DNA of 64,000 bases from Corynebacterium afermentans subsp. afermentans (GTDB lineage Bacteria > Actinomycetota > Actinomycetes > Mycobacteriales > Mycobacteriaceae), in assembly GCF_030408355.1 (NCBI RefSeq), contig NZ_CP046606.1:1922001-1986000 (forward strand), read 5' to 3'. The position numbers and the translations under genes are program-made. Positions 18-61,526 of the stretch are shown here, piece after piece (position 1 is the first letter of the stretch; each line of letters begins with the position of its first letter). The notes beneath the pieces are model-generated. The model was not told the origin of the DNA. It saw only the letters and a list, made by a program, of their open reading frames with translations, and made no database searches.

Positions 18-1049
18 TTGACACGTCCCGGCGCACAGGAGCTGCGCGGCCCTTCGCTTCTCGACGCCAAGGGTGTCCCCTGGCACTACGGCAACCCCCT
101 CGTGGAGCAGCGTATTACCGAGCCGACGCTGGTGGACCGCTCCCACCGCGCCGTCGTTGCCGTCTCCGGGCCGGACGCGCCGGCGTTTTTGGACAACCTG
201 CTGTCGCAGAAGTTGGACGATGTGGCCGACGGCTTCGCCGCCTCCGCCCTGGACTTGGACACGCAGGGGCGGATCCTGCACCACGCGGACGTGGCAGTGG
301 CAGACGGTGTCTACTACTTCGATCTGCCCTCCTACGAGCGCGAATCCTTCGTGGACTTCCTGCGCAAGATGGTGTTCTGGTCCGAGGTGACCATTGAGGA
401 ACCGGACCTGGGCGTGCTGACCATCCTGGGGCCGGTGGCGGAGCCGGACCTGGGCCAAGTGGTCACCCGCCGCCTCGACGGCTGGGGCGGGATCGGCCGT
501 ACCGACATCGCGGTGCCGAAGCAGCAGATTGGCCAGGTCGCCGACCAGTTCCCGCTCGCGGGCCTGATGGCGTTTACCGCCTACCGCGTTGCCGCAGGCG
601 AGCCGGAAACGCGCGCGGACCTAGACGAAAAGTCCATCCCGCACGAGGCCCCGAGCCTGATCAACCGCGGCGAGGCCATCCGCGCCGTGCACCTAGAAAA
701 GGGGTGCTACCGCGGACAGGAAACCGTCGCCCGCGTGGAGAATCTGGGCCGCTCCCCGCGCCTGCTGGTCAAGCTGCAGCTGGACGGCTCCTCGCCGAAC
801 GAGCCCGAAATCGGCGCGGAGATCACCGCCGGTGGGCGCAAGGTGGGCAGGCTCGGCACCGTGGTGCACGATGCCGACGAGGGACCGGTCGCGCTCGCGC
901 TGGTGAAGCGTTCTGCGTTGCAGGCCCCGCTGGACATCGACGGCACGGCGGCGTCGGTGGACCAGTCGTCGTTCCCGGAGGATGAGGGTGAGCATGCGGG
1001 GCGCCGTGCCGTCGATAGGCTCAGGCGCGGACCTGAGAGCCAGCTATAA
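18..1049 (+). CDS. ygfZ: Folate-binding YgfZ/GcvT-like protein
   Basis: A 343-residue member of the aminomethyltransferase-like family that binds folate and supports iron-sulfur cluster enzyme repair or maturation in other bacteria. The family signature K-G-C-Y-x-G-Q-E is intact at residues 228-235, with Cys230. Length is near the usual 320-370. The TTG at 18 has a GGAG only 3 nt upstream, and the frame stays open to the window edge, so the true start may lie before base 1. It is followed by about 130 nt without a gene and then a DUF3073 gene. Family call is firm; start is not. Confidence 0.85.
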   Translation: MTRPGAQELRGPSLLDAKGVPWHYGNPLVEQRITEPTLVDRSHRAVVAVSGPDAPAFLDNLLSQKLDDVADGFAASALDLDTQGRILHHADVAVADGVYYFDLPSYERESFVDFLRKMVFWSEVTIEEPDLGVLTILGPVAEPDLGQVVTRRLDGWGGIGRTDIAVPKQQIGQVADQFPLAGLMAFTAYRVAAGEPETRADLDEKSIPHEAPSLINRGEAIRAVHLEKGCYRGQETVARVENLGRSPRLLVKLQLDGSSPNEPEIGAEITAGGRKVGRLGTVVHDADEGPVALALVKRSALQAPLDIDGTAASVDQSSFPEDEGEHAGRRAVDRLRRGPESQL

Positions 1050-1092
1050 GTGCTGTTCAGCCCCCCGAAGCGCATTTTTCCTGAGAGCAGGC

Positions 1093-1098
1093 TATAGT
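1093..1098 (+). promoter_or_regulatory. Possible -10 for the DUF3073 gene
   Basis: TATAGT stands about 80 nt before the ATG at 1181, which would give a short 5' leader. No convincing -35 is visible. The gap 1050-1180 holds nothing else I can support. Confidence 0.3.
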
Positions 1099-1180
1099 GT
1101 CCTACAGGAAAATATCGTAAATAAGTATGAGGCCGCCTCTTAAGAAGGCCGCCCAAGAACCACCTCAAGGGGGTCACGCC

Positions 1181-1381
1181 ATGGGCCGCGGACGCGCAAA
1201 AGCCAAGCAGACCAAGGTTGCTCGCCAGCTGAAGTACAACACTCCTGAAATGGACCTGGATTCCCTGCAGCGAGAGCTTGTAGGCCAGGCCCCGCGACGC
1301 AGCTGGGACGACGACGAGGCTGAGGTGGACGACCAGTACGCGGAGTACGCGGACTGGGACGACGAGGACGACGACCGCTAA
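1181..1381 (+). CDS. DUF3073 family protein
   Basis: A 66-residue protein starting M-G-R-G-R-A-K-A-K-Q-T-K-V-A-R, the conserved opening of the actinobacterial DUF3073 family, and ending in a strongly acidic Asp/Glu tail. The basic head and acidic tail suggest nucleic-acid or ribosome contact, but no function is established. The ATG at 1181 was chosen over an upstream start at 1127 because AAGGGGG lies 7 nt before it and because family members begin there. It converges on purM across a bidirectional terminator. Confidence 0.85.
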   Translation: MGRGRAKAKQTKVARQLKYNTPEMDLDSLQRELVGQAPRRSWDDDEAEVDDQYAEYADWDDEDDDR

Positions 1382-1399
1382 CGTCCACAGCCTCGATGT

Positions 1400-2501: not shown

Positions 2502-4019
2502 TTAGGCTTCTGCACCTTTCTGGATGCGTCGGACAAGGTCGGCGTTGGGGTTGCCCTCCGGCAGACCCAGCGGGTAGTGGCCGGTGAAGCAGGCCGCGCA
2601 GAGGTTTTCCTTGGGCTGGTTCGAGGCGGCGATCATGTCGTCGATAGGCACGAATGCTAGTGAATCCGCCCCCACCATCGTGCGGATGGACTCGGCGATC
2701 GCCTCCTCCGAATCCGTGCGGCCGTGGTTGGCAATCAGCTCGCCGGGGCTGGCGAAGTCGATGCCGTAGAAGCACGGCCACTTCACCGGCGGCGAGGCGA
2801 TGCGCACGTGCACCTCCGCCGCGCCCGCCTCCCGCAGCATGCGGATGAGTTTGCGCTGCGTGTTGCCGCGCACGATGGAATCGTCCACCACCACGAGCTT
2901 TTTGCCCTCGATGACTTCGCGCACCGGGTTGAGCTTCAAACGCAGGCCCAGCTGGCGCAGGGTGTCGGAGGGCTGGATGAACGTGCGGCCCACGTAGGCG
3001 TTTTTCATCATGCCCTGTTTGAACGGGATGCCGGATGCCTCCGCGTAGCCGATCGCCGCAGGGGTGCCGGATTCCGGCACGGGCATGACCAGGTCCGCCT
3101 CCACGGGGCTGACCTTGGACAGGCGGCGGCCGATCTCGATGCGGGACGCGTTGACGGACTGGCCGTCGATGACGGAATCGGGGCGCGCCACGTAGACGTA
3201 CTCGAACACACAGTGCGCCTTCGGAGTTTCGGCGAAGCGCTCGGAGTGCACGCCGGTCTCGTCGATGGCGACCATCTCGCCCGGCTCAATGTCGCGGACG
3301 AAGGAGGCGCCGACGATGTCCAACGCGCAGGTCTCGGAGGCAACCACCCAGCCGCCGTCGAGGCGGCCCAGCGACAGCGGTCGGACGCCGTGCGGGTCGC
3401 GCGCGGCGTAAAGCGTGTGGCCGTCTGTGACCATGAAACAGAATGCACCCTTGACGCGGGGCAGGAGTTCACGTGCGGCGTCGAGAAGCGTCTTGCCCTC
3501 GGTGACCAGATCGGCCAGCAACGCCGAAACCACCGCGGTGTCCGAGGACGAGCCCTGGCCATTTACCCCGGTAGGAGAAATGAGCTTCTTCTCAATCGCC
3601 TCGTTCTGCAGCTCCAGGTAGTTGACCAAGTTGCCGTTGTGCGCCAGCGCGATGTCCGTGCCGTTGGGCGAGGTGCGGAACATCGGCTGGACGTTCTCCC
3701 ACGAGTTGCCCCCGGCCGTGGAGTAGCGGGTGTGACCGATGGCCACGTCGCCCTGCAGTGCTTCCAGCGCGGGTTCGTCGAAGACCTGGCTGACCAGACC
3801 GGTGTCCTTGAACACGACCAGCTTGTCCGGGTCTCCCACCGCGATGCCGGCGCCTTCCTGGCCGCGGTGCTGCAACGCGAACAAGCCGAAGTAGCTCAGC
3901 TTGGCCACGTCCTCGCCCGGCGCCCAGACGCCGAACACGCCGCACTCGTCGCGCGGGGTGTCGCTGTCGATATCGAAGTCCTGACTTGGTTTAGGGCTCT
4001 CCGTAAACACGCCCCTCAC
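2502..4019 (-). CDS. purF: Amidophosphoribosyltransferase
   Basis: A 505-residue enzyme for the first committed step of purine synthesis (PRPP + glutamine to phosphoribosylamine). A 25-residue propeptide precedes the nucleophile Cys26 in D-E-C-G-V-F-G, so N-terminal processing is expected. The PRPP loop reads V-V-V-D-D-S-I-V-R-G. Cysteines in KAHC-VFE, WPC-FYG and LCAAC match the four 4Fe-4S ligands of the Bacillus-type enzyme, so this should be an oxygen-sensitive iron-sulfur form. It lies between the SCP-like gene (15-nt gap) and purM (no gap). Confidence 0.97.
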   Translation of the reverse strand: MRGVFTESPKPSQDFDIDSDTPRDECGVFGVWAPGEDVAKLSYFGLFALQHRGQEGAGIAVGDPDKLVVFKDTGLVSQVFDEPALEALQGDVAIGHTRYSTAGGNSWENVQPMFRTSPNGTDIALAHNGNLVNYLELQNEAIEKKLISPTGVNGQGSSSDTAVVSALLADLVTEGKTLLDAARELLPRVKGAFCFMVTDGHTLYAARDPHGVRPLSLGRLDGGWVVASETCALDIVGASFVRDIEPGEMVAIDETGVHSERFAETPKAHCVFEYVYVARPDSVIDGQSVNASRIEIGRRLSKVSPVEADLVMPVPESGTPAAIGYAEASGIPFKQGMMKNAYVGRTFIQPSDTLRQLGLRLKLNPVREVIEGKKLVVVDDSIVRGNTQRKLIRMLREAGAAEVHVRIASPPVKWPCFYGIDFASPGELIANHGRTDSEEAIAESIRTMVGADSLAFVPIDDMIAASNQPKENLCAACFTGHYPLGLPEGNPNADLVRRIQKGAEA

Positions 4020-4034: not shown

Positions 4035-4415
4035 CTAGCGCAGCGCAATCACGGGAAGGCCGGCGGCGATTTCTGCGGCGCGGGAACCGGAGGCGTCGAT
4101 AGTCCCCCGCTCGAGCTCCTCGCCGAAGGTGGTCAGCCCAGTAGCCAGCCGCAGCCACGTCTCCGGTTTCATCTCCACCACGTTCGGCGGGGTGCCGCGC
4201 GTGTGCCGCGGCCCCTCGACGCACTGCACCGCCACAAACGGCGGCACGCGCAACTCCACCGAGTGGCCCGGGAGCTCCTCGGCGAGGGTACGCGCGGTGC
4301 GCCGGCAAGCATTCGCAAGCTCGCTTCTCGACGGCTCCGCTTCCCCACCTTCCAACCACTCAGCCACCTGCTGGATCGCCTCACGTGTCAGCGCCGGGTC
4401 TTGTTTCTGCACCAT
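4035..4415 (-). CDS. SCP-2-like (sterol carrier family) protein upstream of purF
   Basis: A 126-residue protein ending in the P-P-N-V-V-E-M ... T-W-L-R-L-A-T-G segment of the bacterial sterol-carrier-like family. M. tuberculosis has a similar small conserved gene (Rv0807) next to purF, so the neighbourhood is conserved. Role is unknown; the family resembles lipid or thiol-binding SCP folds. I chose the ATG at 4415 because a -10 hexamer sits 8 nt upstream and no Shine-Dalgarno is present; an upstream extension to 4532 would run through that promoter and into the divergent gene. Confidence 0.75.
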   Translation of the reverse strand: MVQKQDPALTREAIQQVAEWLEGGEAEPSRSELANACRRTARTLAEELPGHSVELRVPPFVAVQCVEGPRHTRGTPPNVVEMKPETWLRLATGLTTFGEELERGTIDASGSRAAEIAAGLPVIALR

Positions 4416-5534: not shown

Positions 5535-7811
5535 TTAGACCGCCGCGTTCGGCGCCGTTGCGGCCGCGAAGTGCGACGGCATGGTCGCAGCCCACGCACC
5601 GGCGAGCTCCAGCATCTGGACCTCCTCGCCAGCGACGCGCAGCACGCCGTCGTTGGTGGTCTCGCCCAGCACAGCGACCGGTATGCCCGCCGACGTCGCG
5701 CGCTCCACGGCGGCCTCTGCACGGTCGCTGGTCACGGCGACCAGGACGCGGGAGGCGGACTCGGAGAACAGCGCGGTGAACGCGTCCGCGTGCACGCCCT
5801 CCAGGTTCACCTCCGCGCCCTTGTCGGAGCCGAGCAGCAGCTCGAACACCGCCTGGGACAGGCCGCCCTCGGACAGGTCGTGCGCGGCCGCGATGCCGGC
5901 GGCGTTACCGGCGAAGAACTCCGCCAGGCGCGCCTCGTTAGCCAGGTCCACCTGCGGCGGCAGGCCGGCCAGGCCCGCGCCGGAGATGTCCTGCCACACG
6001 GAGCCGCCGAACTCGTCCTTGGTCTCGCCCAGCAGAATCAGGGTGTACTGCTCGTCCGCGGACGGCAGCGCGTGCGGGATGGCCTTCTCCACGTCCTCCA
6101 TCACGCCGAGCACGCCGACCACGGGGGTGGGCAGGATCGGCGTCTCGCCGGTCTGGTTGTAGAAGGACACGTTGCCGCCGGAGACTGGGATGGCCAGCTC
6201 AGCGGAGCCGTCGGCAAGCCCGTGCACCGCCTCGCGGAACTGCCACATCACATCGGGGTTCTCCGGGGAGCCGAAGTTGAGGCAGTTGGTCACCGCAACC
6301 GGTGTGGCGCCGGTGACCGCGACGTTGCGGTACGCCTCCGCCAGCGCGAGGCGCGCGCCCATGTTCGGGTCGAGGTAGGTGTAGCGGCCGGACGCATCAG
6401 CGGAGACGGCAACGCCGCGGTTGGTTTCCTCGTTGATGCGCAGCACGCCGGAGTTGGCGTACTTGGCCTGCACGGTGTTGCCGCGCACGTAGCGGTCGTA
6501 CTGCTCCGTGATGAAGTCGCGCGAGCACAGCGCGGGCGATGCGACCATCTTCAGCCATGCGTCCTTGATGTCGCTTTGCTTCTCGACGTCCGCTGCGGCC
6601 TGCACACCGTCCTGCCAGTCCGGGCGCGCGTAGGGGCGCTCGTAGACCGGCCCCTCGTCGATGGTTGACGGCGGGGCGTCCACCACGAGCTCGCCGTTGT
6701 GGAACACCTGGAGGCGATCCTCGTCCGAGGTGACCTCGCCGATGACGGATGCGAGCACGTCCCACTTGGCGCAGATCTCCATGAACTTATCGACGTCCTC
6801 CGGCGCCACAACCGCACACATGCGCTCCTGCGACTCGGAGGCGAGAATCTCCGCGGCGGACATGTTCTCCGCGCGCAACGGGACATTGTCCAGGTTGACC
6901 GTCATGCCGCCGTCGCCGGACGCCGCGAGCTCGGAGGTGGCGCAGGACAGGCCGCCGCCGCCTAGGTCCTGGATGCCCTCGACCACGTCGGCGGCGTAGA
7001 GCTCGAGGCAGCACTCGATGAGGACCTTCTCCGCGAACGGGTCGCCTACCTGCACTGCCGGCAACTTGCGCTCCTCGCCCTCCTCGAAGGTGGCGGAGCC
7101 CAGCACGGACACGCCGCCGATACCGTCGAGGCCGGTGCGGGAGCCGAACAGGATGACCTTGTTGCCGGTGCCGGAGGCGAACGCCAGGTGGAGGTCATCC
7201 ACCTTCAGCGTGCCCACGCACAGCGCGTTGACCAGTGTGTTGCCGGCGTACGCCGGGTCAAAGACGGTCTCGCCTCCGATGTTGGGCAGGCCCAGGCAGT
7301 TGCCGTAGCCGCCGATGCCGTGGACCACACCCGGCAGGACGCGCTTGGTGTCGTCGGCGTCGATGGCGCCGAAGCGCAGCTGGTCCATCACTGCGATCGG
7401 GCGGGCACCCATGGCCATGATGTCGCGGACGATGCCGCCGACGCCGGTGGCCGCGCCCTGGTACGGCTCCACGAAGGAGGGGTGGTTGTGGCTTTCCACG
7501 CGGAAGGTCACCGCGTCGCCGCCGCCGATGTCCACCACGCCGGCGTTCTCGCCGATACCGGCGAGGATCTTCGAAGCCATCTCCTCGGTCATGGTCTGGC
7601 CGAAGTAGCGCAGGTGCGTCTTGGAGGACTTGTAGGAGCAGTGCTCGGACCACATCACGGAGTACAGCGTCAGCTCCGCGTCGGTAGGCCTGCGGCCCAG
7701 AATCGCCTTGATCTTTTCGTACTCGTCGTCCTTCAGGCCCAGCTCGGCGTACGGCTGCTCAAGCTCCGGGGTGTCGAAGGCGTTGTCGACGGTGTCGTTG
7801 TGCACGGTCAT
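5535..7811 (-). CDS. purL: Phosphoribosylformylglycinamidine synthase subunit PurL
   Basis: A 758-residue small-type PurL that turns FGAR into FGAM with ATP. This type works with separate PurQ (glutaminase) and PurS (bridging) subunits, both encoded immediately upstream, so the three form one complex. The early [10 protein letters not shown] and D-I-G-G-G-D-A motifs and the G-G-G-G-L-S-C-A segment are typical. It starts 7 nt after purQ and is last in the purS-purQ-purL operon. Confidence 0.97.
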
Positions 7812-13533: not shown

Positions 13534-14440
13534 CAGTGTTGGTGTGGTGGCTGCGGTGGTGGCCGTAGGGGCGTCGATAAGCAGTTGCTCCACTGAGACC
13601 GCGGATAATGCGGAGATTGTCGCCACCACCGGTGTGTGGGCGGACGTGGCCTCGGCGGTCACGGGCAACGACGTGGACGCGATCATCACCGGTGACGCGG
13701 TGGACCCCCACCACTTCGAGCCGTCGGCGAAGGACCTCGCGCGTATCAAGGGCGCAAACACCGTCGTGGCCAACGGGGGCGCGTACGACGCGGCGCTCTA
13801 CACCGCCGCCGAGCAGGACCGCATCGTCTACGCCATCCCGCTTCTCGACGCTGAAGAGGCCCACGACCACGACCATTCCCACGATGATCACGAGCACGGG
13901 GACCACGACCATCACCACCATGACATCGGCTCCCTCGACGACATCGAGCACGCCTGGTTCGCGCCCGCGAAGGTGCTGCAGGTCGCGGAGGATGTCGCGG
14001 AATGCACCGGCGGGGACGCGTCAGACGTCAAGCAGCGCATCGGCGAAATCCAATCCAAGCTCAACGCGGTGCCGCACGTGCACATCGGCATGACTGAGAC
14101 GATCGCGGCCGGCTTGGTGTGGGGCACGGAGCTGCACGACATCACGCCCGAGGAATACGTCAAGGCCAGCCTGAACCACCAGGAGCCGTCCGCATCTGCA
14201 GTGGCGGCGTTCCTGGAGCAGATCGAGCGCGGCGAGCTGGACATGCTGTTTGCCAACCCGCAGAGCACCAACAGCGCCACCCAGCGGTTGGCGGATGCGG
14301 CGAAGGCGCATAATGTTCCCGTTGTTGAAATTCGGGAGACGCCCCCGGCCGGCCAGAACTTCCTGGACTACTTCGAGGAGATCGTGGGGCAGATCACCGA
14401 CATCGCAGCCCACGCCGAGCCGACCGACCACCACCACTAG
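13514..14440 (+). CDS. znuA: Zinc ABC transporter substrate-binding lipoprotein
   Basis: A 308-residue cluster A-I metal-binding protein. Residues 1-25 are a lipoprotein signal with lipobox I-S-S-C (Cys25), so it is anchored outside the membrane. A dense His/Asp stretch at about 117-139 is the zinc-collecting loop of Zn-specific members. An upstream start at 13478 is possible, but the ATG at 13514 places the lipobox correctly and lies 7 nt after a -10 hexamer. Genes for the ATPase and permease follow, so import into the cell is the role. Zn rather than Mn is inferred from the His loop and the Zur-like sites. Confidence 0.88.
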   Translation: MRNHFQYSVGVVAAVVAVGASISSCSTETADNAEIVATTGVWADVASAVTGNDVDAIITGDAVDPHHFEPSAKDLARIKGANTVVANGGAYDAALYTAAEQDRIVYAIPLLDAEEAHDHDHSHDDHEHGDHDHHHHDIGSLDDIEHAWFAPAKVLQVAEDVAECTGGDASDVKQRIGEIQSKLNAVPHVHIGMTETIAAGLVWGTELHDITPEEYVKASLNHQEPSASAVAAFLEQIERGELDMLFANPQSTNSATQRLADAAKAHNVPVVEIRETPPAGQNFLDYFEEIVGQITDIAAHAEPTDHHH

Positions 14441-14451: not shown

Positions 14452-15123
14452 TTGATCGCTGAGCTTCGCAGCGCCGCCGTCGAACCACTCTGGCGCGACC
14501 TCACCCTCACCGTCGAGCCCGGCGAATTCATCGCGGTGCTCGGCCCAAACGGCGTGGGCAAATCCACCCTGCTGGGCACGCTGATGGGCACGCGCAAGCT
14601 CACTACCGGCACGGCCGCGGTCCACGGGCAGGTCGGTTTTATCCCGCAGCAGCACATGTTCCCGAAGGACTTGCCGGTGCGCGGGCGCGACCTTGTTGCG
14701 TTGGCGATGGGAAAGCGGGCGAGACCGGAGGACGTCGATAGGCAATTGGCTTCTGTGGGGGCGCAATCCTTTTCCGAGCGGCGCGTGGGGGTACTCTCCG
14801 GCGGCCAGCAACAGCTGATCCGCCAGGCGCAGGCATTCTCGCAGAACCCAGAGCTTTTGCTTTGCGACGAGCCCCTGCTCTCCCTCGACCCCGCCCGCGC
14901 ACGCGACACCGTGCAACGCCTCGCCGAGCACCCCGCGGCCGTGGTGTGCGTGACGCACTCGATCAACCCGGTGATGGGCGTTGTGGACCGAGTACTCTAC
15001 CTCGGCCCGGAAGGCCACGTGGTGGGCAGCGTTGCCGAAGTTATGCGCTCCGAGGTGCTCAGCGAGCTCTACGGCACCCGCGTGGGCGTCGTGGAGGTTG
15101 ACGGACGGATGGTGGTCCTGTGA
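14452..15123 (+). CDS. znuC: Zinc ABC transporter ATP-binding protein
   Basis: A 223-residue ABC ATPase that powers the zinc importer. The Walker A is G-P-N-G-V-G-K-S-T, the signature L-S-G-G-Q-Q-Q and the Walker B L-L-L-C-D-E-P. The TTG start has AGGAA 8 nt upstream. It begins 11 nt after znuA and overlaps znuB by GTGA. The nucleotide domain is close to minimal length. Confidence 0.9.
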   Translation: MIAELRSAAVEPLWRDLTLTVEPGEFIAVLGPNGVGKSTLLGTLMGTRKLTTGTAAVHGQVGFIPQQHMFPKDLPVRGRDLVALAMGKRARPEDVDRQLASVGAQSFSERRVGVLSGGQQQLIRQAQAFSQNPELLLCDEPLLSLDPARARDTVQRLAEHPAAVVCVTHSINPVMGVVDRVLYLGPEGHVVGSVAEVMRSEVLSELYGTRVGVVEVDGRMVVL

Positions 15124-24452: not shown

Positions 24453-24460
24453 CGATAAGC

Positions 24461-38645: not shown

Positions 38646-38825
38646 TGCGGCTCCTTGCGTCGTTAGGCGAAGTTCAGACCCCAACACCCTACCACCCCGC
38701 ATTTCGCTTATCGACGACCAAAGGTCGGCTCGCCCAATAGGGGGAGCAAGTGGGAAAACTGCTGTGCAGACGCTAGAGTATTGCGGAGGAAACCCTCGAA
38801 TGAGTTTGATGATGGAGGACACCCC

Positions 38826-45966: not shown

Positions 45967-48638
45967 TCTTCGCGCTCATCCGGGAACTCTGATGCCTCGG
46001 ACTCCGGCTGGGTGCGCTCCGGCTCGATGTCGCGGACTTCGTCCTCCGGCTCCACGTCGAAGGCCTCTGCAGGCAGCGGGCGCGGGCGCGGGGTAAAGGT
46101 GAACTTCGCGTCCGGCGCGGCCTTGCCGCGTTCCTTGCGTGCAGCCTCGACGTCGCCGTCCCAGCCCTCGACGTCCGCGGTGATGATCTCGCCGGCGCCG
46201 ATTTCGCCGAACAGGATCTTCTCCGACAGGATGTCCTCGATCTCGCGCTGAATCGTGCGGCGCAGCGGGCGCGCACCCAGCACCGGGTCGAAGCCACGGA
46301 CCGCGAGCAGGCTCTTCGCGTTCTCGGTCAGCTCGATACCCATGTCCTGCGCGGCCAGGTTCTTGTCCACACGGCCGATGAGCAGGTCCACCATCTGGAC
46401 AATCTCGTCCTGATTGAGCTGCTTGAACACCACGATGTCGTCGATGCGGTTCAGGAACTCCGGACGGAAGTGCTTCTTCAGCTCGTCGTTAACCTTGCCC
46501 TTCATGCGCTCGTACTGCGCCTCGGCATCCGTGGCGGTGTCACCCGTGAAGCCTAGGCCGACCGGCTTGGAAATGTCGGCGGTGCCCAGGTTCGAGGTGA
46601 AGATCAGCACGGTGTTCTTGAAGTCCACGTTGCGACCCTGGCCGTCGGTGACGTGGCCCTCTTCGAGCACCTGGAGAAGCGTGTTGTAGATCTCCTTGTG
46701 CGCCTTCTCGATCTCGTCGAAAAGCACCACGCTAAACGGCTTGCGGCGTACCTTCTCGGTGAGCTGGCCGCCTTCTTCGTAGCCGACGTATCCCGGAGGT
46801 GCGCCGAAGAGGCGCGAGGCAGTGAAGCGGTCGTGGAACTCGCCCATGTCCACCTGGATCAGCGAGTCGTCGTCGCCGAAGAGGAACTCCGCGAGCGCCT
46901 TGGACAGCTCCGTCTTACCCACACCGGACGGGCCGGCGAAGATGAAGGAGCCGGACGGACGGTTCGGGTCCTTCAGGCCGGCACGGGTGCGGCGGATGGA
47001 GCGGGAGACAGCCTTGACTGCTTCGTCCTGGCCGATGATGCGTTTGTGCAGCTCATCTTCCATGTTGAGCAGACGGTTCGACTCGCTCTCGGTGAGCTTG
47101 AACACCGGGATGCCGGTCCAGTTGGCCAGCACGTCCGCGATCTGGTCCTCGCCGACCTCGGCAATCTCCTCCAGGTCGTCGGAGCGCCACTTCTTCTCCT
47201 TGGCGGAGCGCTCCTCCCCCAGCTTGCGCTCGGTGTCGCGCAGGCCGGCGGCCTTTTCGAAGTCCTGGGCGTCGATCGCCGCTTCCTTTTCCTTGCGCAC
47301 CTCGGAGATGCGATCGTCAACCTCGCGGAGGTCCTCCGGGGCGGTCATGCGCTTGATGCGCATGCGGGCACCGGCCTCGTCGAGAAGATCGACGGCCTTG
47401 TCCGGCAGGAAACGGTCGTTGATGTAGCGGTCCGACAGCGTCGCTGCCGCCTTGAGGGCGTCGTCGGTGTAGGACACGCGGTGGTGCGCCTCGTAGCGGT
47501 CGCGCAGGCCCTTGAGGATCTGCACGGTGTCTTCCAGGCTCGGCTCGTCCACCTGCACCGGCTGGAAGCGGCGCTCGAGGGCCGCGTCCTTTTCAATGTG
47601 CTTGCGGTACTCGTCCAGCGTGGTCGCGCCGATGGTCTGGAGCTCACCGCGCGCCAGCTTCGGCTTCAGCAGCGAAGCCGCGTCGATGGCACCCTCCGCG
47701 GCACCCGCGCCGACGAGGGTGTGAATCTCGTCGATGAACAGGATGATGTCGCCGCGCTGGTTGATCTCCTTGAGCACCTTCTTCAGGCGCTCCTCAAAGT
47801 CGCCGCGGTAACGGGAACCCGCCACCAGGGAACCCAGGTCCAGGGAGTAGACCTGCTTCTCCTTCAGCGTCTCCGGGACCTTGCCGTTGGCGATGTCCAG
47901 GGCAAGGCCCTCAACCACGGCGGTCTTACCCACACCGGGCTCGCCGATGAGCACCGGGTTGTTCTTGGTGCGGCGCGACAGCACCTGCATGACGCGCTCG
48001 ATCTCCTTGTCGCGGCCGACAACCGGGTCGAGCTTGCCTTCCTTCGCGGCCGCGGTGAGGTTGCGGCCGAACTGGTCCAGCACCAACGAGTTGGAGCGCT
48101 CGCCGCCCTGCGGGCCACCACCAGCGCGCGGACCCGCACCGGCACCTGCGAAGCCCGGCTGGCCCTGCTGCGGGGACTCCGGGTTCTGGCCCTCGCCGCC
48201 CTCGTAGCCGGACAGCAGCTGGATAACCTGCTGGCGCACGCGCGGCAGGTCCGCGCCGAGCTTGATCAGCACCTGGGCCGCCACACCGTCGCCCTCACGG
48301 ATGAGGCCGAGCAGCAAGAACTCGGTGCCAATGTACTTGTGGCCCATCTGCAGGCCCTCACGCAGGGAAAGCTCCAGCACCTTCTTCGCGCGCGGGGTGA
48401 ACGGGATGTGGCCGGTCACCGGCTGGGTGCCGTGGCCGATAATGTCGATGACCTCGCGACGCACGTCGTCGAGGTTGATGCCCATGGACTCGAGCGCCTT
48501 CGCTGCGACGCCCTCGCCCTCCTTGATCAGGCCGAGCAGGATGTGCTCGGTGCCCATGTAATTGTGGTTGAGCTCGCGCGCCTCCTCCTGTGCAAGGACG
48601 ATGACGCGACGGGCCCGGTCGGTAAACCGCTCGAACAT
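45900..48638 (-). CDS. clpC: ClpC ATP-dependent protease ATPase
   Basis: A 912-residue class I Clp ATPase feeding ClpP. It has two N-terminal Clp repeats (about 1-150), AAA domain 1 with G-E-P-G-V-G-K-T, a UVR-type middle segment, AAA domain 2 with G-P-S-G-V-G-K-T-E, and a long Asp/Glu/Gly-rich tail. [11 protein letters not shown] is the standard start. A ClgR-like operator lies 124 nt upstream. Confidence 0.97.
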
Positions 48639-48776: not shown

Positions 48777-49068
48777 CAGGCCGGAAATACACATCCTCGT
48801 GGGCCTTGCAGCCGGGATTGAAAGGGTGCCCGCACGAGGGGCAGGACGCGCCGTATTCGGCATGCGTCATCATGCGCCCGCACGCGCCGCACATCACGGA
48901 GGGCAGTTGCCTATCGACGGGCACGAAACCGTGATCAGCCAACTCGTCGTGGCATAGCGAGCAGGCCCACAGTTTCTCGCAGGCCCCGCACGTGTTGGCA
49001 ACGACGTCGCGCTCAGAGTGCCAGTGAGCGCAACGCCCTTGCCCATCGACGGCGATTCCGTGGATCAG
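48769..49068 (-). CDS. CHY zinc-finger protein with apparent CTG start
   Basis: A 99-residue cysteine-rich protein: R-C-A-H-W-H, N-T-C-G-A-C, W-A-C-S-L-C-H-D-E-L-A-D-H, then C-G-A-C and C-P-S-C. This is the CHY zinc-finger family. No ATG, GTG or TTG exists in frame between the preceding stop and the first conserved residues. A CTG at 49068 overlaps the ptsI stop as CTGA, copying the ATGA/GTGA couplings elsewhere in the window, with AGGA 8 nt upstream. Residues fit the family from the first codon onward. Role is unknown; redox or zinc binding is inferred. Confidence 0.7.
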   Translation of the reverse strand: MIHGIAVDGQGRCAHWHSERDVVANTCGACEKLWACSLCHDELADHGFVPVDRQLPSVMCGACGRMMTHAEYGASCPSCGHPFNPGCKAHEDVYFRPVR

Positions 49069-50756: not shown

Positions 50757-52818
50757 TCGTGTTCACCTCAGTTGTGACCTCGAGAATCGGATCGCCAGCG
50801 ACGACCGTGCCGTCTGCAACGTCACCCACGCCGCCGAGCTTCTTCGAGTTCACCACTGTAGTGATAACCGTCGTGTCCACGCCGTGACCGGCGATTGCGG
50901 CGAAGTCCACCTCCGCCAGCGGATCACCCGCCTCCACCAGCTGCTTCTTTTCTGCCAGCGGGGTGAAACCCTCACCGCTGAGCTTGACGGTGTCCACGCC
51001 GATGTGGACCAGAAGCTCCACACCATCGTCGGTTTTGATGCCGTAGGCGTGGCCCGTCTTCGCCACGGAAATGACCTTGCCGGCCGCCGGGGCGACCACG
51101 GTGAGCGTGGTGTTTTCGGGGGTAACGCCGACCGCCTGGCCGAGGGCGCCGGAGGCGAATGCTGCATCCGACAGCGCTTCCATCGCGACAACCTCACCGG
51201 CGATGGGCGCGAGCACAATCGCATCCGCATCGCTTGCCGACGTCAGCCCCGCCCGCTCCTTCGCCGGATCATCAACTGCCGTGACCTCGTCTTCAACCAT
51301 CTCGGCTTCCTCGTCCTCATCGGCGTTCCGGGCCGCGGCAGCGCGGGCAAGCGCGTCGGCCTTCTCTTCCGGGGTGCGGTAGTCGGTGACCAGGATGATG
51401 AAGAAGGAGGTGAAGAACGCCACGGCGATGGCGAGCATGTACACCCACATCGGGTCGAACACGAACATGGTTGGCAGCGAGGTGAACACGAACGCGTTCG
51501 TCTTCACGCCGCCAAACGGGGTGCCCAGGATGGCGATGGTGAGGCCACCGGCGAAGCAACCCACCAGCATGCGCGGGTAGATCTTCTTAAAGCGCAGGTG
51601 GATGCCGTAGAGCGACGGCTCGGAGATGCCGCCAAGCAGGCCGGCCGCGAGCGCGGAACCGGAGGTCTGGCGCATGAGCGGGTCGTGGTCGCGGATGGAC
51701 AGCGCGAGTACAGCGGCGGTGGCGCCGAAGCAGGCGAAGTTCCACGCACCCATCGGGCCCTGGATGAAGTCGTAGCCCAGGGTGTCAATGTTGACCAGCA
51801 TCAGGGCATTGAGTGGCCAGTGCAGGCCAAGCGGCACCAGGAACGGGTACAGCATCGGGATCAGCAGGGCGAAGATGAACGGCGCATTGCCGTTCATCCA
51901 GGCCAGGCCGGTGCCGATCCACGCGCCGAGCAGGTAGCCGAACGGGCCGATGAGAAACGCGGTCACCGGGATCATGATCAGCATGGTCAAAAACGGCACG
52001 AAGACCATGTGCACCGTGGACGGGATGATCTTTTGCAGGCCTTTGTAGAGCAATGCGGCGACCGCGGCCATGATCAGCGGCACGAACACGTTGCCGTTGT
52101 AGCCGTTGAGGATCATGGGCAGGCCGAACACGTCAACGACGTCGGTCGGCGCACCGAAGAGATCAATAACCCGCGCGTCGGGGTGCTCCTTTAGGTCGAT
52201 GAAATCCGGGGTGAACAGCGCCAACATGATGGCGGCAGGCACCCACGGGTCAATGTCCAGCTTCTTGCCCGCGTTGTACGCCACCGCGACCGGCAGGAAG
52301 AAGAACACGGAGTTCCACATGGCGTCCACGAACTGCCAACCCGGGGTCTTTACCTCCGCGCGGAAGTCGACGATGCTGAACGCGTCCAGGAATGCCGCGA
52401 AGGCGATGATCAGCGACGCACCGAGCAGCACACCCAAAATGGGCCGGAAGGAGTCGGAGAGGTACTCGAAGAACGCGTCCAGCCACGGGACCTTGCCCTT
52501 GGCCTTGTCGCGCTGTTGGGCTTTGAGGTCCTCGTTGGACACGTCGCGGTTCGCTAGCTCCGGCAGCTTGTTCATCGCGTTGTACACGGTGGCCACATCG
52601 CCGCCCACAATCACCTGGTAGTGGCTGCCACCTTGCGGGACAGCCCCCATGACCTTGGGGTTAGCCTCCAAGCGGTCCTTGTCTGCCAGGGAGGTGTCGT
52701 GAAGCTCGAAGCGCAAACGGGTCGCGCAGTGCGTCATAGACGCGATGTTGTCCGCCCCGCCGATGCCGGCGAGGATGTCGGCGGCCTGATCCTGCAGGCT
52801 CGCCTTGGTGGTTGCCAT
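50749..52818 (-). CDS. ptsG: PTS glucose-type EIIBCA permease
   Basis: A 689-residue permease in B-C-A order, as in C. glutamicum PtsG. The EIIB phospho-Cys is Cys31 in T-H-C-A-T-R-L-R-F. EIIC has about ten membrane segments, with G-L-H-W-P-L-N-A and G-G-I-S-E-P-S-L-Y-G. EIIA has the His in L-L-V-H-I-G-V-D-T. Long identical stretches with PtsG favour glucose as substrate; trehalose or sucrose types are less similar. ATG 52818 is preferred because AAAGGAG lies 7 nt upstream. ptsI follows with an 8-nt overlap. Confidence 0.88.
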   Translation of the reverse strand: MATTKASLQDQAADILAGIGGADNIASMTHCATRLRFELHDTSLADKDRLEANPKVMGAVPQGGSHYQVIVGGDVATVYNAMNKLPELANRDVSNEDLKAQQRDKAKGKVPWLDAFFEYLSDSFRPILGVLLGASLIIAFAAFLDAFSIVDFRAEVKTPGWQFVDAMWNSVFFFLPVAVAYNAGKKLDIDPWVPAAIMLALFTPDFIDLKEHPDARVIDLFGAPTDVVDVFGLPMILNGYNGNVFVPLIMAAVAALLYKGLQKIIPSTVHMVFVPFLTMLIMIPVTAFLIGPFGYLLGAWIGTGLAWMNGNAPFIFALLIPMLYPFLVPLGLHWPLNALMLVNIDTLGYDFIQGPMGAWNFACFGATAAVLALSIRDHDPLMRQTSGSALAAGLLGGISEPSLYGIHLRFKKIYPRMLVGCFAGGLTIAILGTPFGGVKTNAFVFTSLPTMFVFDPMWVYMLAIAVAFFTSFFIILVTDYRTPEEKADALARAAAARNADEDEEAEMVEDEVTAVDDPAKERAGLTSASDADAIVLAPIAGEVVAMEALSDAAFASGALGQAVGVTPENTTLTVVAPAAGKVISVAKTGHAYGIKTDDGVELLVHIGVDTVKLSGEGFTPLAEKKQLVEAGDPLAEVDFAAIAGHGVDTTVITTVVNSKKLGGVGDVADGTVVAGDPILEVTTEVNTNV

Positions 52819-54271: not shown

Positions 54272-55783
54272 TTACGCCTCCGGCTTCACCATCGGGAAGA
54301 GGACGGTCTCGCGAATGCCCAGGCCGGTCAGGGCCATCAGCAGGCGGTCCACGCCCATGCCGCAGCCGGCTGTCGGGGGCATGCCCTGCTCCATCGCGGC
54401 GAGGAAGTCCTCGTCGAGCTGCATCGCTTCGTCGTCGCCGGCGCTGGCAAGGCGGGCCTGGTCCTCGAAACGCTCGCGCTGGATCACCGGGTCAACCAGC
54501 TCGGAGTAGCCGGTGGCCAGCTCGAAGCCGCGGACATACAGGTCGAACTTCTCGGTCACGCCGGGTTTGTCGCGGTGGTCGCGGGTCAGCGGGGAGGTCT
54601 CCACCGGGAAGTTGACCACGAAGGTCGGCTCGTAGAGCTGGTCGGAGCACAGCTCCTCCCAGATCTCCTCCACAAGCTTGCCGTGCAGCCAGCCGGCGTT
54701 TTCCGGCACCTTCAGGCCGATGGTTTCCGCGATGCCCTTGAGCGTGTCCACGTCGGTGTCGATGGTCACTTCCGGCTGTCCCGGGAACTTGCGCTGCAGC
54801 GCCTCGTTCAAGCTCGGGTACATCTCCAGGACCTTCCACTCGCCACCGAGGTCGTACTCCGTGCCGTCCGCAAGCGTGACCTTCTGGGAGCCGAAGACTT
54901 CCTCGGCACAGAACTGCACAAGCCCCTTCATAGTGGCCGCGCCGTCCTTGTAAGTGCCCCACGCCTGGTAGGTCTCCAGCATGGTGAACTCCGGGGAGTG
55001 GGAGGAATCCACGCCCTCGTTGCGGAAGTTCCTGTTGATCTCGAAGACGCGCTCGATGCCGCCGACCACAGCACGCTTGAGGAAGAGCTCCGGCGCGATG
55101 CGCAGGTACAGGTCGATGTCCAGCGCGTTGGAGCGGGTGACAAACGGACGTGCCGCGGCACCACCGTGCAGCGTCTGCAGCATCGGCGTCTCAATCTCGA
55201 CAAAGTCCAGACCCGTGAGGTACTTGCGCACAGCAGCGATGACCTTGATGCGGGTCATGGCGTTGGTGCGCGCGTCCTCGCGCATGATCAGGTCGGTGTA
55301 GCGGCGGCGCACCCGCTGCTCCTCGTTCATGTCCGCGAACGCCACCGGCAGCGGGTTGAGCGACTTCGAGGCCATGTGCCAGGACTTCGCCATCACGGAC
55401 AGCTCGCCGCGACGCGACGAGATGACCCGGCCACGCACGGAGACGATGTCGCCCAAGTCCGTGTCGGCCTTCCACTGGCCCAGCGCCTCTTCGCCGACCT
55501 CAGCCAGAGAAAGCATGACCTGCAGTTGGGTGCCGTCGCCCTCCTGCAGAGTGGCGAAGCACAGCTTGCCGGTGTTGCGCTGGAACATAATGCGGCCGGC
55601 AACGGCGACCTCGTCCTGCGTCTCCTCGCCCGCATCCAGCGTGCCGTCGTACTTGGCGCGAAGGTCCTTCAGAGACGTAGTGCGATCGACTTCGACGGGG
55701 TAGGCGTCCCGCCTTTCGTCGATAAGCCTCTGCCTCTTCTCCCGGCGGATTTGCTGCTGCTCTGAAAAGTCCTGCGTAGTCAC
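54272..55783 (-). CDS. lysS: Lysyl-tRNA synthetase (class II)
   Basis: A 503-residue class II synthetase with an N-terminal OB fold (around 60-165), motif 2 [11 protein letters not shown] and motif 3 G-M-G-V-D-R-L-L-M. The GTG at 55783 gives V-T-T-Q-D-F-S; the longer frame to 55849 reads into the neighbour. A TACGAT hexamer 8 nt upstream suggests an internal leaderless promoter. Confidence 0.96.
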
Positions 55784-57871: not shown

Positions 57872-58573
57872 TTATCCTCCCTCGTATTTCTGAATCACCC
57901 ATAGCTCGGTGTCGGTGTCCTGGTCCACCTCACCACGCCTGCGCACAAGATCGACAAACAGGCGGCGAACGCCCGGATCCGGCAAGGCGTGGACGAGCTG
58001 GTCCAGCTGCTGCGTGTCGTGGGCATGTCGTGGCGCCGGCGGGGCTTGGAAGAACTGCTGCGCCACCGCGTCGAACCCCGGCACTGCCTCAGCGAGGATC
58101 GCCTGCGCGTCGTCGCGGATGACGGATTCCATTGCCCGCAGCTCCTGGGCGGCGGCGATCGCGGGGCGGGCGTCGTCGTTAATGCGCAAGCTCACCCCGC
58201 CAATTTCCGTGATGAGCAACCCCACCACCGTCTCTCCGAGCTCGTCGGCGGCCGAGGTCACCCACACGTTGTCGAAGATGTTGTGGGCGCACATAGTGAT
58301 CGCCTGGGCGGTCTCCACGTCGTCGAGCAGCTGCTGGCCCTCGTCCAGCGCGGTGTGCAGAAACATCTGCCGCGGCCGGGCGTGGTCGGCGAGGGTTTCG
58401 CAGGCGGTGCGGATGTCGGCCGAAGGTGCGTCGAGAAGCACAAGGTCCACGTGCGCGATTGCGCCGGGATCATTGTCGATGTCCAGCGCACGCACCGTGT
58501 GGCCGGCGCGCTCGAAGCGCTCCGCAAGCGGCGAGACGCCGAACACCGCCCCCACCAACAGGCGAGGCGGCAT
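57872..58573 (-). CDS. Rossmann / DUF2520-like protein
   Basis: A 233-residue protein with a Rossmann-like start (L-L-V-G-A-V-F-G-V-S-P-L-A-E-R-F-E-R-A-G-H-T-V) and a C-terminal helical half, the layout of DUF2520 proteins that precede panC in M. tuberculosis (Rv3603c). The usual G-x-G-x-x-G is not intact, so NAD(P) binding is doubtful. It starts immediately after its upstream neighbour's stop. Confidence 0.65.
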   Translation of the reverse strand: MPPRLLVGAVFGVSPLAERFERAGHTVRALDIDNDPGAIAHVDLVLLDAPSADIRTACETLADHARPRQMFLHTALDEGQQLLDDVETAQAITMCAHNIFDNVWVTSAADELGETVVGLLITEIGGVSLRINDDARPAIAAAQELRAMESVIRDDAQAILAEAVPGFDAVAQQFFQAPPAPRHAHDTQQLDQLVHALPDPGVRRLFVDLVRRRGEVDQDTDTELWVIQKYEGG

Positions 58574-59383: not shown

Positions 59384-59393
59384 GCCCAACACT

Positions 59394-59861
59394 CTAGCTA
59401 ACGCCTTGGCCCTCGTTGGGCGGCGACACCTCGCAGTTTTTCTCTAACCAGATGCCAGCCACGCACAGAGCGATTCCGCCCAGGGTGCCGGCGGTCAGCG
59501 GCGGGACATCGCCGGGCGCCGCTTCGAGCACGCCGAGTTTTGTCACCACGAAGCTCAGGGTGCCGCCGTACAGGCCGCCGAAGACCGCGCCGGCCCAGGC
59601 GCACGCCTTGCCGAAGACCATGAAATTCGCCGCCTGCATGGGGTTGAGCTGGCTGCGGTCCAGCCCGACCTTGCCCTCCTTGCGGCGCTTGCGCACCACC
59701 AGCGCGAGCCAGGTGGCGATGACTGCCATCACCCACAGCGACAGCGGCACCACCATGCTGAGCGATTCCAGCAGGTTATAGAACCGGCGAACAAGGATCA
59801 CCGCCGCAGCCGCGCAGAATCCGGCGACGGCGATCAGCCCCTCGTACGGCGTGCGCTTCAT
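59394..59861 (-). CDS. DUF3180 membrane protein
   Basis: A 155-residue protein with four membrane segments and the conserved N-P-M-Q-A-A-N-F-M-V-F-G-K-A motif of DUF3180, found next to folK across Actinobacteria. Function is unknown. The ATG overlaps the folK stop as ATGA. Confidence 0.85.
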   Translation of the reverse strand: MKRTPYEGLIAVAGFCAAAAVILVRRFYNLLESLSMVVPLSLWVMAVIATWLALVVRKRRKEGKVGLDRSQLNPMQAANFMVFGKACAWAGAVFGGLYGGTLSFVVTKLGVLEAAPGDVPPLTAGTLGGIALCVAGIWLEKNCEVSPPNEGQGVS

Positions 59862-60316
59862 AGCTTGCGCACCCCCTGGTCCTCGAGGTTGTCAAGCAGC
59901 TCGCTTATCGACGCTCCGTGCATCTCCGCCCCCGGATCCATCTCGAGCCAGGGCTCGAGCACAAACTGGCGCAAGTGCGCGCGCGGATGTGGAACGGTCA
60001 GCTCCGGGTCATCGCTGGTGTAGCCCTCGATCCAGACGATGTCCACGTCCAACGTGCGCGGACCCCAGCGCTGATCGCGGACGCGGTTGGCACGCTGCTC
60101 CAGCTTTTGGCAGCGGGCCAGAAGTTCGTGCGGGGTGTCGCCCACGTCCACCAGCAGGGACTGGTTGAGAAAATCCGGCTGGTCTGTGTTTCCCCACGGC
60201 GCGGTGGCGTAGATGGAGCTCGCGGCGAGGGTCTCGCCAGCGAACTCGTCGGCCACCGTCTGCAGGTGGGCGCGCGCGTCGCCCATGTTGGACCCGGAAG
60301 ACAGCACGGCACGCAT
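59858..60316 (-). CDS. folK: HPPK, 6-hydroxymethyl-dihydropterin pyrophosphokinase
   Basis: A 152-residue enzyme activating hydroxymethyl-dihydropterin with ATP. L-S-S-G-S-N-M-G-D opens it, and W-G-P-R-T-L-D-V-D-I-V-W holds the metal-binding Asp pair. It lies 3 nt after folB. Confidence 0.94.
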   Translation of the reverse strand: MRAVLSSGSNMGDARAHLQTVADEFAGETLAASSIYATAPWGNTDQPDFLNQSLLVDVGDTPHELLARCQKLEQRANRVRDQRWGPRTLDVDIVWIEGYTSDDPELTVPHPRAHLRQFVLEPWLEMDPGAEMHGASISELLDNLEDQGVRKL

Positions 60317-60319
60317 CGG

Positions 60320-60691
60320 CTACATCCGCTTCCGGGAACGGCGGGCAACCACCGCGACGTCGTCGAACACCGCCGGGATCGGCGCGTGCGGCTTGTGCAG
60401 AGTGACTTCCACGGCGTGCAGCGCGTCGTAGCTGCGCATAGCGGTCTCTGCGATCTCCACCGCCACCGTCTCAATCAGCTGGCGCGGGGTGCCGCCGGCG
60501 ATGCGCAACGCTGTTTCCGCCAGCTCCGCGTAGTTGACGGTCTGAGTCAGGTCGTCGTCCTTAGCCGCGCCCGCGAAGTCGAGCCAGCACGTGATGTCCA
60601 GAGAAAACGCCTGCCCGAACTCCGTTTCGTGGTCGAGCACGCCGTGGTTGGCGTGGAACGCGAGGCCTTTGAGCTCAATCCGGTCAGCCAT
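60320..60691 (-). CDS. folB: Dihydroneopterin aldolase
   Basis: A 123-residue enzyme of the tunnelling fold. It opens A-D-R-I-E-L-K-G-L-A-F-H-A-N-H-G-V and keeps V-N-Y-A-E-L and the H-K-P-H-A-P-I-P end. It makes hydroxymethyl-dihydropterin, the substrate of FolK. The start overlaps folP by 8 nt. Confidence 0.94.
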   Translation of the reverse strand: MADRIELKGLAFHANHGVLDHETEFGQAFSLDITCWLDFAGAAKDDDLTQTVNYAELAETALRIAGGTPRQLIETVAVEIAETAMRSYDALHAVEVTLHKPHAPIPAVFDDVAVVARRSRKRM

Positions 60692-61526
60692 TTTTCCACC
60701 TTTCTGCCACGTCTACCGCGTCGCGCGAGACCGCCACCTCGTGCACCCGCACGCACCAGGCACCAGCCTGGGCGGCAAGGGCGGTGACTGCCGCGGTGGC
60801 CGGGTCGGCGTCGATAGGCGAATGCTCGAGACCACGCTGCTGCCGCACCTCCATGAGGAAGCGCTTGCGCGACGCACCCACGAGGATGGGAAACCCGCTC
60901 GCGATGAACTCCGGCAGCGAGTTGAGCAGCGCCCAGTTATCCGCGGCCGTCTTGGCAAAGCCCAGGCCCGGGTCCAGGGTGATCTGGCTTTCGTCCACGC
61001 CTGCAGCGGTCGCCTTATCGACGAGCTCCGCCAGCACCACGTGCACATCCCCCACCACGTCCCCGCCGTGGTCAGCCGCGCCGGAAGCGTTGACGAAGGC
61101 GTCCGCGCGCCAGTGCATCAGGCACACCGGCAGCTGCATCTCAGCCATCACCCGGTACATGTCGGCGTCCGCCAGGCCGCCGGAGACATCGTTGATCAGG
61201 TCCACGCCCTCCTCGGCCGCTGCCAGGGCGGTGGCGGCGCGCATGGTGTCCACGGAGGTGCGGATCCCGTCGGCGTGGAGCGCACGAATCACGGGGCGGA
61301 TGCGCGCCGCCTCCACCTCCGCGGGGACACGGGTGGCGCCGGGGCGGGTCGATTCCGCGCCGACATCGATGATGTCCGCGCCCAGGCGCACCAGCTCGTG
61401 GGCGTGTGCGATGGCGTCGTCCGTTGCGAGCCACCTGCCGCCGTCGGAAAACGAATCCTCCGTGACATTGACAATGCCCATCACACTCGTGCGCCCCGGC
61501 ACGGTCAGATCGGCAACGGTAGTCAT
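60684..61526 (-). CDS. folP: Dihydropteroate synthase
   Basis: A 280-residue TIM barrel joining the pterin to p-aminobenzoate; the target of sulfonamides. M-G-I-V-N-V-T-E-D-S-F-S-D-G-G, D-V-G-A-E-S-T-R-P-G and L-D-P-G-L-G-F-A-K-T are the three signature segments. It starts 3 nt after folE. Confidence 0.95.
   Translation of the reverse strand: MTTVADLTVPGRTSVMGIVNVTEDSFSDGGRWLATDDAIAHAHELVRLGADIIDVGAESTRPGATRVPAEVEAARIRPVIRALHADGIRTSVDTMRAATALAAAEEGVDLINDVSGGLADADMYRVMAEMQLPVCLMHWRADAFVNASGAADHGGDVVGDVHVVLAELVDKATAAGVDESQITLDPGLGFAKTAADNWALLNSLPEFIASGFPILVGASRKRFLMEVRQQRGLEHSPIDADPATAAVTALAAQAGAWCVRVHEVAVSRDAVDVAERWKNG

Follow-up and report, generated by a model that had tools for sequence, protein, structure and literature searches.

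A putative DNA-uptake-sequence-like self-tag with one-base dialects in the genus Corynebacterium

Why should a single 11-base word, CGTCGATARGC, recur fourteen times within 64 kb of the chromosome of Corynebacterium afermentans subsp. afermentans? The stretch in question (the window, 64,000 bases, positions 1,922,001–1,986,000 of a single-contig genome of 2,375,453 bases, G000; G codes denote genomes and L codes stretches) had been the subject of a preliminary description, which listed nine copies on the plus strand and five on the minus strand and put the chance expectation at well under one. The coordinates of all 14 copies are correct, and 100 dinucleotide shuffles of the window gave a mean of 0.09 copies with a maximum of 1. 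Across the genome, where a count had been proposed as a check, CGTCGATARGC occurs 237 + 202 = 439 times in 2.38 Mb, compared with 1 + 0 for the reversed-pattern control. The observation is real, and it was understated: the word covers only those members of a broader pattern, GCNTNTCGACG, that have A at the free position and either T or C at position 3, and the pattern as a whole has 484 + 538 = 1022 copies (0.45/kb) against 60 for its reversed control. The analysis below establishes this word as a DNA-level, chromosome-wide, non-polar signal that is conserved above matched words.

The form of the unit was derived from a 464-kb sample of the genome, consisting of the window and 20 further stretches (21 places). 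Read on the strand opposite to that of the word first described, as CGTCGANANGC (the reverse complement of GCNTNTCGACG), the real unit is GC[T>C>G]T-N-TCGACG, in which the leading GC and the CGACG are almost invariant and the T preceding CGACG is strongly preferred. Variant counts in the sample are 58 for GCTTATCGACG, 46 for GCTTCTCGACG, 28 for GCCTATCGACG, 22 for GCTTTTCGACG, 21 for GCTTGTCGACG and 14 for GCGTATCGACG, with 0–9 copies for each of the remaining single-base variants of GCTTATCGACG. The unit is thus wider than originally written. It had been called sharply bounded, which is true of its CGTCG end; a weak extension past the ...AGC end, roughly AANTGC, may be explained in part by codon phase. 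The window contains 33 GCNTNTCGACG sites together with 4 sites of a weaker form with CCGACG.

The case for selection on DNA rather than protein had been tied to the fate of the enrichment under a model of codon usage. Within 366 genes, predicted with a simple gene finder of our own and covering about 80% of the sample, the enrichment persisted when codon usage was modelled by shuffling synonymous codons within genes, a test in which codon pairs as such lie outside the model. GCYTNTCGACG was found 150 times in coding DNA, compared with a mean of 12.1 and a maximum of 21 in 100 shuffles, and we therefore conclude that selection acts on the DNA. One-base dialects at orthologous sites (see below) bear this out. 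A repeat in a second genome (G019) gave 208 copies of GCNTNTCGACG versus 36 (maximum 49, 40 shuffles). The intergenic density, 0.36/kb, is nearly equal to that in coding DNA, 0.40/kb. Copies had been said to fall in different reading frames and to force rare codons. As to frames, 48 of the 150 are antisense and 3 lie in the other two sense frames, but one frame dominates (99 of 150), namely xxG-CTT-NTC-GAC-G, and does so even though CTT makes up 8% of Leu codons. The codons imposed are indeed rare, at 8% of Leu (CTT), 5% of Pro (CCT), 1% of Ile (ATA) and 3% of Arg (AGG).

Sites are spread evenly along the chromosome and show no orientation with respect to replication. There are 100 forward and 109 reverse sites in the sample; when GC skew is used to place the origin close to base 1 and the terminus about halfway along, 101 sites are leading-strand and 108 lagging-strand (p = 0.68). 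This tally opposes the suggestion of a segregation or recombination signal of the KOPS (FtsK-orienting polar sequence) or Chi type, and polarity of that kind along the replichores was rejected. Clustering and regular spacing were likewise rejected, as counts per window are approximately Poisson (variance/mean 0.87–0.95), and none of the 21 places sampled is markedly richer in sites. In an alignment with a relative of 85.5% identity (G049), 47% of 125 sites retain all 11 bases, compared with 29% of anagram 11-mers (p = 3e-5). The same alignment contains 75 sites that remain motif, 50 present only in the window's genome and 15 present only in the relative; the sites are therefore conserved and yet turning over. 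Density is 0.64/kb in aligned DNA (153 sites) versus 0.19/kb (6 sites) in unaligned runs of 500 bp or more inside the same blocks, a comparison drawn from one genome pair. Eight Corynebacterium plasmids (324 kb) contain 7 C-form sites (0.02/kb), 3 T-form sites and 4 of the reversed control, a count that covers both of the dialects defined below and leaves the hosts' own dialects outside the comparison. As a separate observation, neighbouring sites separated by less than 1 kb show a preference for opposite orientations, in 49 of 70 cases in the window's genome (L039–L058 and the window), in 92 of 159 in G019 (L273–L290, L131 and L132; p = 0.057 alone) and in 21 of 31 in the near relative G049 alone, with a joint p of 6e-4 for the first two; this tendency is without explanation and is not counted as evidence.

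The word is specific to the genus, in which it exists as dialects. CGTCGATARGC has 0–701 copies in 73 genomes of Corynebacterium and 0–12 in 48 genomes of other genera. Among 22 named Corynebacterium genomes, the highest counts of GCTTNYCGACG are found in C. pilosum (1289), C. bouchesdurhonense (1043) and C. haemomassiliense (922), and one genome each of Nocardia, Rhodococcus, Skermania, Mycolicibacterium, Prescottella and Williamsia gave 88–156 (controls 59–133). In 16 of the 73 genomes GCNTNTCGACG remains below twice its reversed control. Two of these, G006 and G053, carry a form in which GACG (C form) is replaced by GATG (T form), and the other 14 have 16–46 T-form copies, approximately the density of other genera.

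A survey of the T form in 80 genomes, including 62 of the 73, found GCTTNYCGATG to be abundant in six: C. sp. J010B-136 (889 copies), G006 (796), C. sp. KPL1814 (765), the uncultured Corynebacterium G135 (757), G053 (611) and C. phoceense (566). The remaining 74 have 10–97. Because the reversed T-pattern control is low everywhere (0–33), the base level is better judged from other genera, which have 50–81 copies in 5–7 Mb. The C form is close to background in the T genomes, with 64 copies in KPL1814 (control 37), 43 in G135 (30), 57 in J010B-136 (41) and 40 in C. phoceense (25), and GCNTNTCGACG itself has 29 copies in G006 and 9 in G053. A further form, GCTTGCCGACG, shifted in the free and sixth positions, exceeds GCNTNTCGACG in G001 (603 vs 375) and G056 (551 vs 321), is about as frequent in G031 (495 and 502) and accompanies it in G004 (297 plus 313 GCNTNTCGACG).

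Alignment of genomes with opposite dialects reveals that the same base differs at the same places in the aligned part, and whole-genome counts agree for the remainder. Over 62 kb at 79.1% identity, 24 C sites of G004 correspond in the T-form genome G006 to 17 CGATG, 0 CGACG and 7 otherwise changed sequences, while CGACG outside the motif gives 58 C, 40 T and 132 other (Fisher p = 2e-6, T vs C). KPL1814 compared with C. sp. ACRPO gives 7 T, 0 C and 2 other (background 13 T, 19 C, 33 other), and G135 compared with G004, over a region partly shared with the G006 test, gives 7 T, 0 C and 3 other (background 8, 12 and 37). Between two C-form relatives, ACRPO and G004 (95.9% identity), 10 of 10 sites are kept. 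A TadA tree places the T form in more than one position, one of them a well-supported group that is sister to C-form species; this is a tree of one gene, in which several forks are weak. From this one-base switch at orthologous sites we infer a sequence-specific reader with changed specificity, and a reader protein altered in its specificity at that base would be the simplest cause of the dialects. The switch itself holds whether the word is an uptake tag or the site of a chromosome protein.

Other words were seen elsewhere in the genus. G032 (L225–L227) has a different over-represented word, TGTTCATGAGGGG, mostly outside predicted genes (TGTTCATGAGG, 10 copies in 60 kb, 2 coding; CCCCTCATG, 29 copies, 11 coding). 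In G039 (76% G+C; L123, L124 and L233–L235), TCGCCGAGG / CTCGCCGAGGC exceeds codon shuffling, the longer form by 10 to 1.8, and may represent the same word in a G+C-rich dialect. TTA[AT]CGACG in G013 (L228–L229), with 15 copies in coding DNA versus 1.9 after shuffling, is possibly another. A AAACATCGGATAG-like word found 6–7 times in 21 kb of C. sp. HMSC29G08 (L136) is probably a local repeat, as it left the top list once copies less than 300 bp apart were merged.

Candidate machinery for reading the word is encoded throughout the genus. ComEC was matched in all 73 genomes with, by reading of the listings, a short ComEA-type HHH_3 match adjoining comEC in each, and TadA was above the cut-off in 71; G024, one of the two below it, is motif-less. 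Ssd, TadA, TadB, TadC, Flp, TadE and TadF were all matched in 15 genomes in which the tad region is whole (TadC is matched in pieces in C. phoceense, and the G071 contig ends within the locus), and ComEA and ComEC in all 10 genomes checked for these two. A helicase gene comes next in the window's genome, and the last small protein matches TIGR03816 (Rv3654c family TadE-like protein); the closest named TadA among the matches listed is that of C. haemomassiliense, at 98% identity. Two local features concern comEC. In G001, where the motif is abundant, ComEC is in two pieces in different open frames (G001:C4:524862-525658), the sole case in the 73 genomes, and in the window's genome a predicted open frame of 2914 aa (L114 238-8982, plus strand) adjoins comEC convergently.

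We searched these proteins for positions at which the residue matches the dialect in a clade of 4 T and 6 C genomes, leaving G002 and G049 out of the TadE comparison on account of spurious ComEC matches. Columns strictly separating the dialects number 1 in Ssd, 2 each in TadA, TadE and TadF and 0 in TadB, TadC and Flp, or 4 of 213 in TadE/TadF versus 3 of 1387 in the other five; columns that separate them loosely are frequent in every one of these proteins but Flp. For ComEA and ComEC the strict test included one T genome only and is uninformative. Two candidate reader residues looked promising but do not hold outside the clade: Arg/Lys versus Ser/Gln in TadE fails at C. urinipleomorphum and C. 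alimapuense, which are C-form and have Ser, and Arg versus Gln in TadF fails at other C-form species, which have Ala or other residues. A divergent or missing TadA is found in 12 of 14 motif-less genomes versus 2 of 59 others, at a cut of 159 bits set after seeing the data; we give this little weight because the cut is post hoc and the three such genomes on the tree form one clade.

Among the roles listed in the preliminary description, that of a DNA-uptake signal fits best, while the segregation and recombination roles of KOPS or Chi type are opposed. We favour, with moderate confidence and on sequence comparisons, the view that GCNTNTCGACG is a putative DNA-uptake-sequence-like, genus-specific self-tag, read by a transformation system of Tad/Flp pilus and ComEA/ComEC. 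A sequence-specific reader, to which the DNA-level, non-polar and dialect features point, would recognise the tag. It would belong to the natural-transformation apparatus, made up of the Tad/Flp pilus (Ssd, TadA–C, Flp, TadE and TadF) with ComEA and ComEC, and this apparatus would prefer tag-bearing DNA. Recombination of imported tagged fragments would then keep and spread the tag by molecular drive, and the C and T dialects would act as exchange barriers between sister species. The Tad/Flp and Com route is plausible because tad genes are required for transformation in Micrococcus luteus, which is not proof, since motif-less species have them as well.

Several observations weigh against the uptake-tag reading. 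ComEC, ComEA and the tad genes are found equally in genomes without the motif, among them G014 and G039 with an ordinary TadA, so that the presence of ComEC, ComEA and TadA was rejected as a discriminator; conversely, G021 has 1002 motif copies and no good TadA match, possibly owing to an assembly gap. The agreement of TadE/TadF residues with the dialect in one clade does not extend across the genus. Weak or odd forms in G013, G032, G041, G048 and G062 are without explanation, as are the 76–87 T-form copies, above the level of most genomes, retained by C-form sister species of G006. Uptake sequences of Neisseria and Haemophilus are denser than the 0.45/kb found here. Close inverted motif pairs (gaps of up to 50 bp) are not in excess, at 0.021 observed versus 0.022 expected, and terminator hairpins were rejected on this basis. 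Finally, no report of natural transformation in Corynebacterium appeared in the open literature, among the matches listed.

The preliminary description knew of no such motif in corynebacteria, and neither that motif nor any uptake sequence for Corynebacterium appeared in the open literature among the matches listed, a search whose scope excluded preprint servers and subscription journals; the accessible part of a 2017 motif survey mentions three Corynebacterium genomes and reports CRISPR patterns for them. We see even chances that this is an independent uptake-sequence system, the first in Gram-positive bacteria and the first linked to Tad/Flp, in which specificity flips by one base, the tags follow in place and sister species become isolated. 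In that case uptake sequences would be known from three lineages, and their occurrence in Actinobacteria, as the third instance, would show that self-tags for DNA exchange have evolved again and again. Natural transformation would be indicated in a genus that matters to both industry and medicine, which would help to explain how genes move there. Sister pairs of opposite dialect would serve as a natural experiment in the hunt for the reader protein, and bear on the long-standing question of whether a thousand sites shift in concert through selection or through a molecular drive powered by uptake.

The rival that must be taken most seriously is a binding site for an intracellular chromosome protein, acting in nucleoid organisation, segregation, replication or repair, with dialects that follow changes in the protein. 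Even genome-wide spread, conservation and dialect switching would look much alike under such a protein; low density in accessory DNA and plasmids fits it, and it would not require the com and tad genes, which do not discriminate because motif-less genomes carry them too. The absence of polarity and of any marked concentration at the sampled places speaks against it, as does the near-complete replacement of C by T in a sister species, which needs strong site-by-site selection or a drive that such a protein alone does not supply. We know of no chromosome-protein site system with dialects, which also counts against it, and on balance we regard this explanation as rather unlikely, though of real weight. 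A Chi-like hotspot tuning a helicase-nuclease would share the core-genome bias of the word, and Chi has a density of the same order in E. coli. Chi is, however, strand-polar, whereas the leading and lagging tallies here are indistinguishable, and 9–11 specified bases are long for Chi; we consider this very improbable.

A methyltransferase target, in which GACG decays to GATG through deamination of 5-methylcytosine at the motif CpG, would account for the changed base being the C of a CpG, and for T being present in G006 at all 17 aligned sites still reading CGA-C/T-G. T genomes nevertheless hold as many sites as their C relative (796 in G006; the two forms together in G004, given above), and the T form is therefore maintained rather than a product of decay. 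This proposal also leaves the enrichment without explanation, and restriction targets are usually avoided. There is little chance that methylation is the whole cause, although deamination of methylated CpG is a possible contributor to the dialect, short of explaining the number of T sites. Lastly, protein sequence, codon-pair habit or mutation bias could generate the copies as a by-product, in keeping with most coding copies lying in one frame, where they encode Leu-[Ile/Leu/Phe/Val]-Asp. Synonymous shuffling removes 92% of these copies (codon-pair bias being outside the model), intergenic and coding densities are alike, and the word is near background in plasmids and in close relatives with the other dialect. 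A codon or protein cause was rejected in view of the enrichment that outlasts shuffling, and the by-product idea as a whole, already largely refuted, has a negligible chance of being correct.

Sites of the motif and of its weaker forms in the window. Strands refer to the GC...CGACG orientation, opposite to that of CGTCGATARGC; intergenic positions are as called by the simple gene finder.
Sequence	Position	Strand	Class	Remark
GCTTCTCGACG	56..66	+	motif	sense in predicted gene 3-1049
GCCTATCGACG	1010..1020	-	motif	CGTCGATARGC copy
GCCTATCGACG	2639..2649	-	motif	CGTCGATARGC copy
GCTTCTCGACG	3479..3489	-	motif	
GCTTCTCGACG	4323..4333	+	motif	
GCTTGCCGACG	6209..6219	-	weaker form	
GCTTCTCGACG	6578..6588	+	motif	
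GCCTACCGACG	7679..7689	-	weaker form	
GCTTATCGACG	13572..13582	-	motif	CGTCGATARGC copy
GCTTCTCGACG	13840..13850	+	motif	
GCCTATCGACG	14733..14743	-	motif	CGTCGATARGC copy
GCTTCTCGACG	17004..17014	-	motif	
GCTTCTCGACG	19933..19943	-	motif	
GCTTTCCGACG	21000..21010	-	weaker form	
GCCTATCGACG	21544..21554	+	motif	CGTCGATARGC copy
GCTTGTCGACG	21793..21803	-	motif	
GCTTATCGACG	24450..24460	-	motif	CGTCGATARGC copy
GCTTCTCGACG	28571..28581	+	motif	
GCGTATCGACG	31065..31075	+	motif	
GCTTTTCGACG	32332..32342	+	motif	
GCTTGTCGACG	32586..32596	-	motif	
GCTTGTCGACG	33843..33853	+	motif	
GCTTATCGACG	34607..34617	-	motif	CGTCGATARGC copy
GCTTCTCGACG	35489..35499	-	motif	
GCTTATCGACG	38706..38716	+	motif	CGTCGATARGC copy, intergenic
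GCTTTTCGACG	43221..43231	-	motif	
GCTTATCGACG	43771..43781	-	motif	CGTCGATARGC copy
GCTTATCGACG	44197..44207	+	motif	CGTCGATARGC copy
GCTTCTCGACG	44946..44956	+	motif	intergenic
GCTTTTCGACG	46715..46725	-	motif	
GCCTATCGACG	48909..48919	+	motif	CGTCGATARGC copy, intergenic
GCTTGCCGACG	51232..51242	+	weaker form	
GCTTATCGACG	55717..55727	-	motif	CGTCGATARGC copy
GCTTCTCGACG	58429..58439	-	motif	
GCTTATCGACG	59903..59913	+	motif	CGTCGATARGC copy
GCCTATCGACG	60809..60819	-	motif	CGTCGATARGC copy
GCTTCTCGACG	61694..61704	+	motif	

The stretch 7,689–13,572 of the window lacks any site and is largely taken up by a single long gene whose product is a surface or secreted protein. This gene (8938-13419, plus strand), in the longest motif-free gap, encodes 1493 aa with lamin-tail, endonuclease/exonuclease/phosphatase, Rib and collagen-repeat domains, and its product resembles a nuclease, either secreted or bound to the wall, that carries a collagen-like stalk. 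Ten consecutive C at 27544 lie about 100 bp from a tRNA-Thr gene (27653-27728, minus strand), 300 bp ahead of a gene for a ThrE-type exporter; runs of 10–11 C are also present in L046 and L047, and all are possible phase-variable tracts. In L055 (8201-15058; G000:C1:2040001-2060000), TTGTTCGGATC occurs 13 times in 7 kb in one frame antisense to predicted coding DNA that encodes a repetitive protein.

Short words over-represented genome-wide, as here, include HIP1 (highly iterated palindrome) of cyanobacteria, Chi and KOPS. HIP1 is palindromic, and Chi and KOPS are polar along the chromosome, whereas the Corynebacterium word is neither. The DNA uptake sequences (DUS) of Neisseriaceae occur on both strands and in coding and intergenic DNA, as does this word, and inverted pairs serving as terminators are common both for DUS and for the uptake signal sequences (USS) of Pasteurellaceae. 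In the sequence features tested, terminator pairing excepted, the Corynebacterium word matches DUS and USS: it is short and asymmetric, lies on both strands and within and between genes, has dialects, is rarer in accessory DNA and occurs in genomes that encode predicted transformation machinery, the last being equally true of motif-less genomes. The accessible text on Neisseriaceae describes eight DUS dialects around an invariant core (Frye 2013, PMC3630211), and the present word likewise is short and over-represented, with clade-specific dialects and a shared core. It differs from DUS in its unrelated sequence, its phylum and the lack of an excess of inverted pairs, and the filament machinery found here is Tad/Flp, no search aimed at ComP having been made. 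The portions of the USS literature available describe two main types, Hin and Apl, each subclade-specific and with a shared core (PMC1626085, PMC12616744). Two main forms with a shared core are found here too, although, unlike USS as there described, their difference is a single base, and one gives way to the other between sister groups of the TadA tree. As far as the accessible text goes, tad genes are needed for transformation in Micrococcus luteus, in which deletion of tadB lowers it more than 100-fold and the TadE/TadF pilins are needed for Flp on the cell surface (PMC4322843); the main text of that paper contains 0 occurrences of 'uptake sequence', 'sequence-specific' and 'Corynebacterium'. 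Corynebacterium, also an actinobacterium, carries Ssd, TadA–C, Flp, TadE, TadF, ComEA and ComEC.

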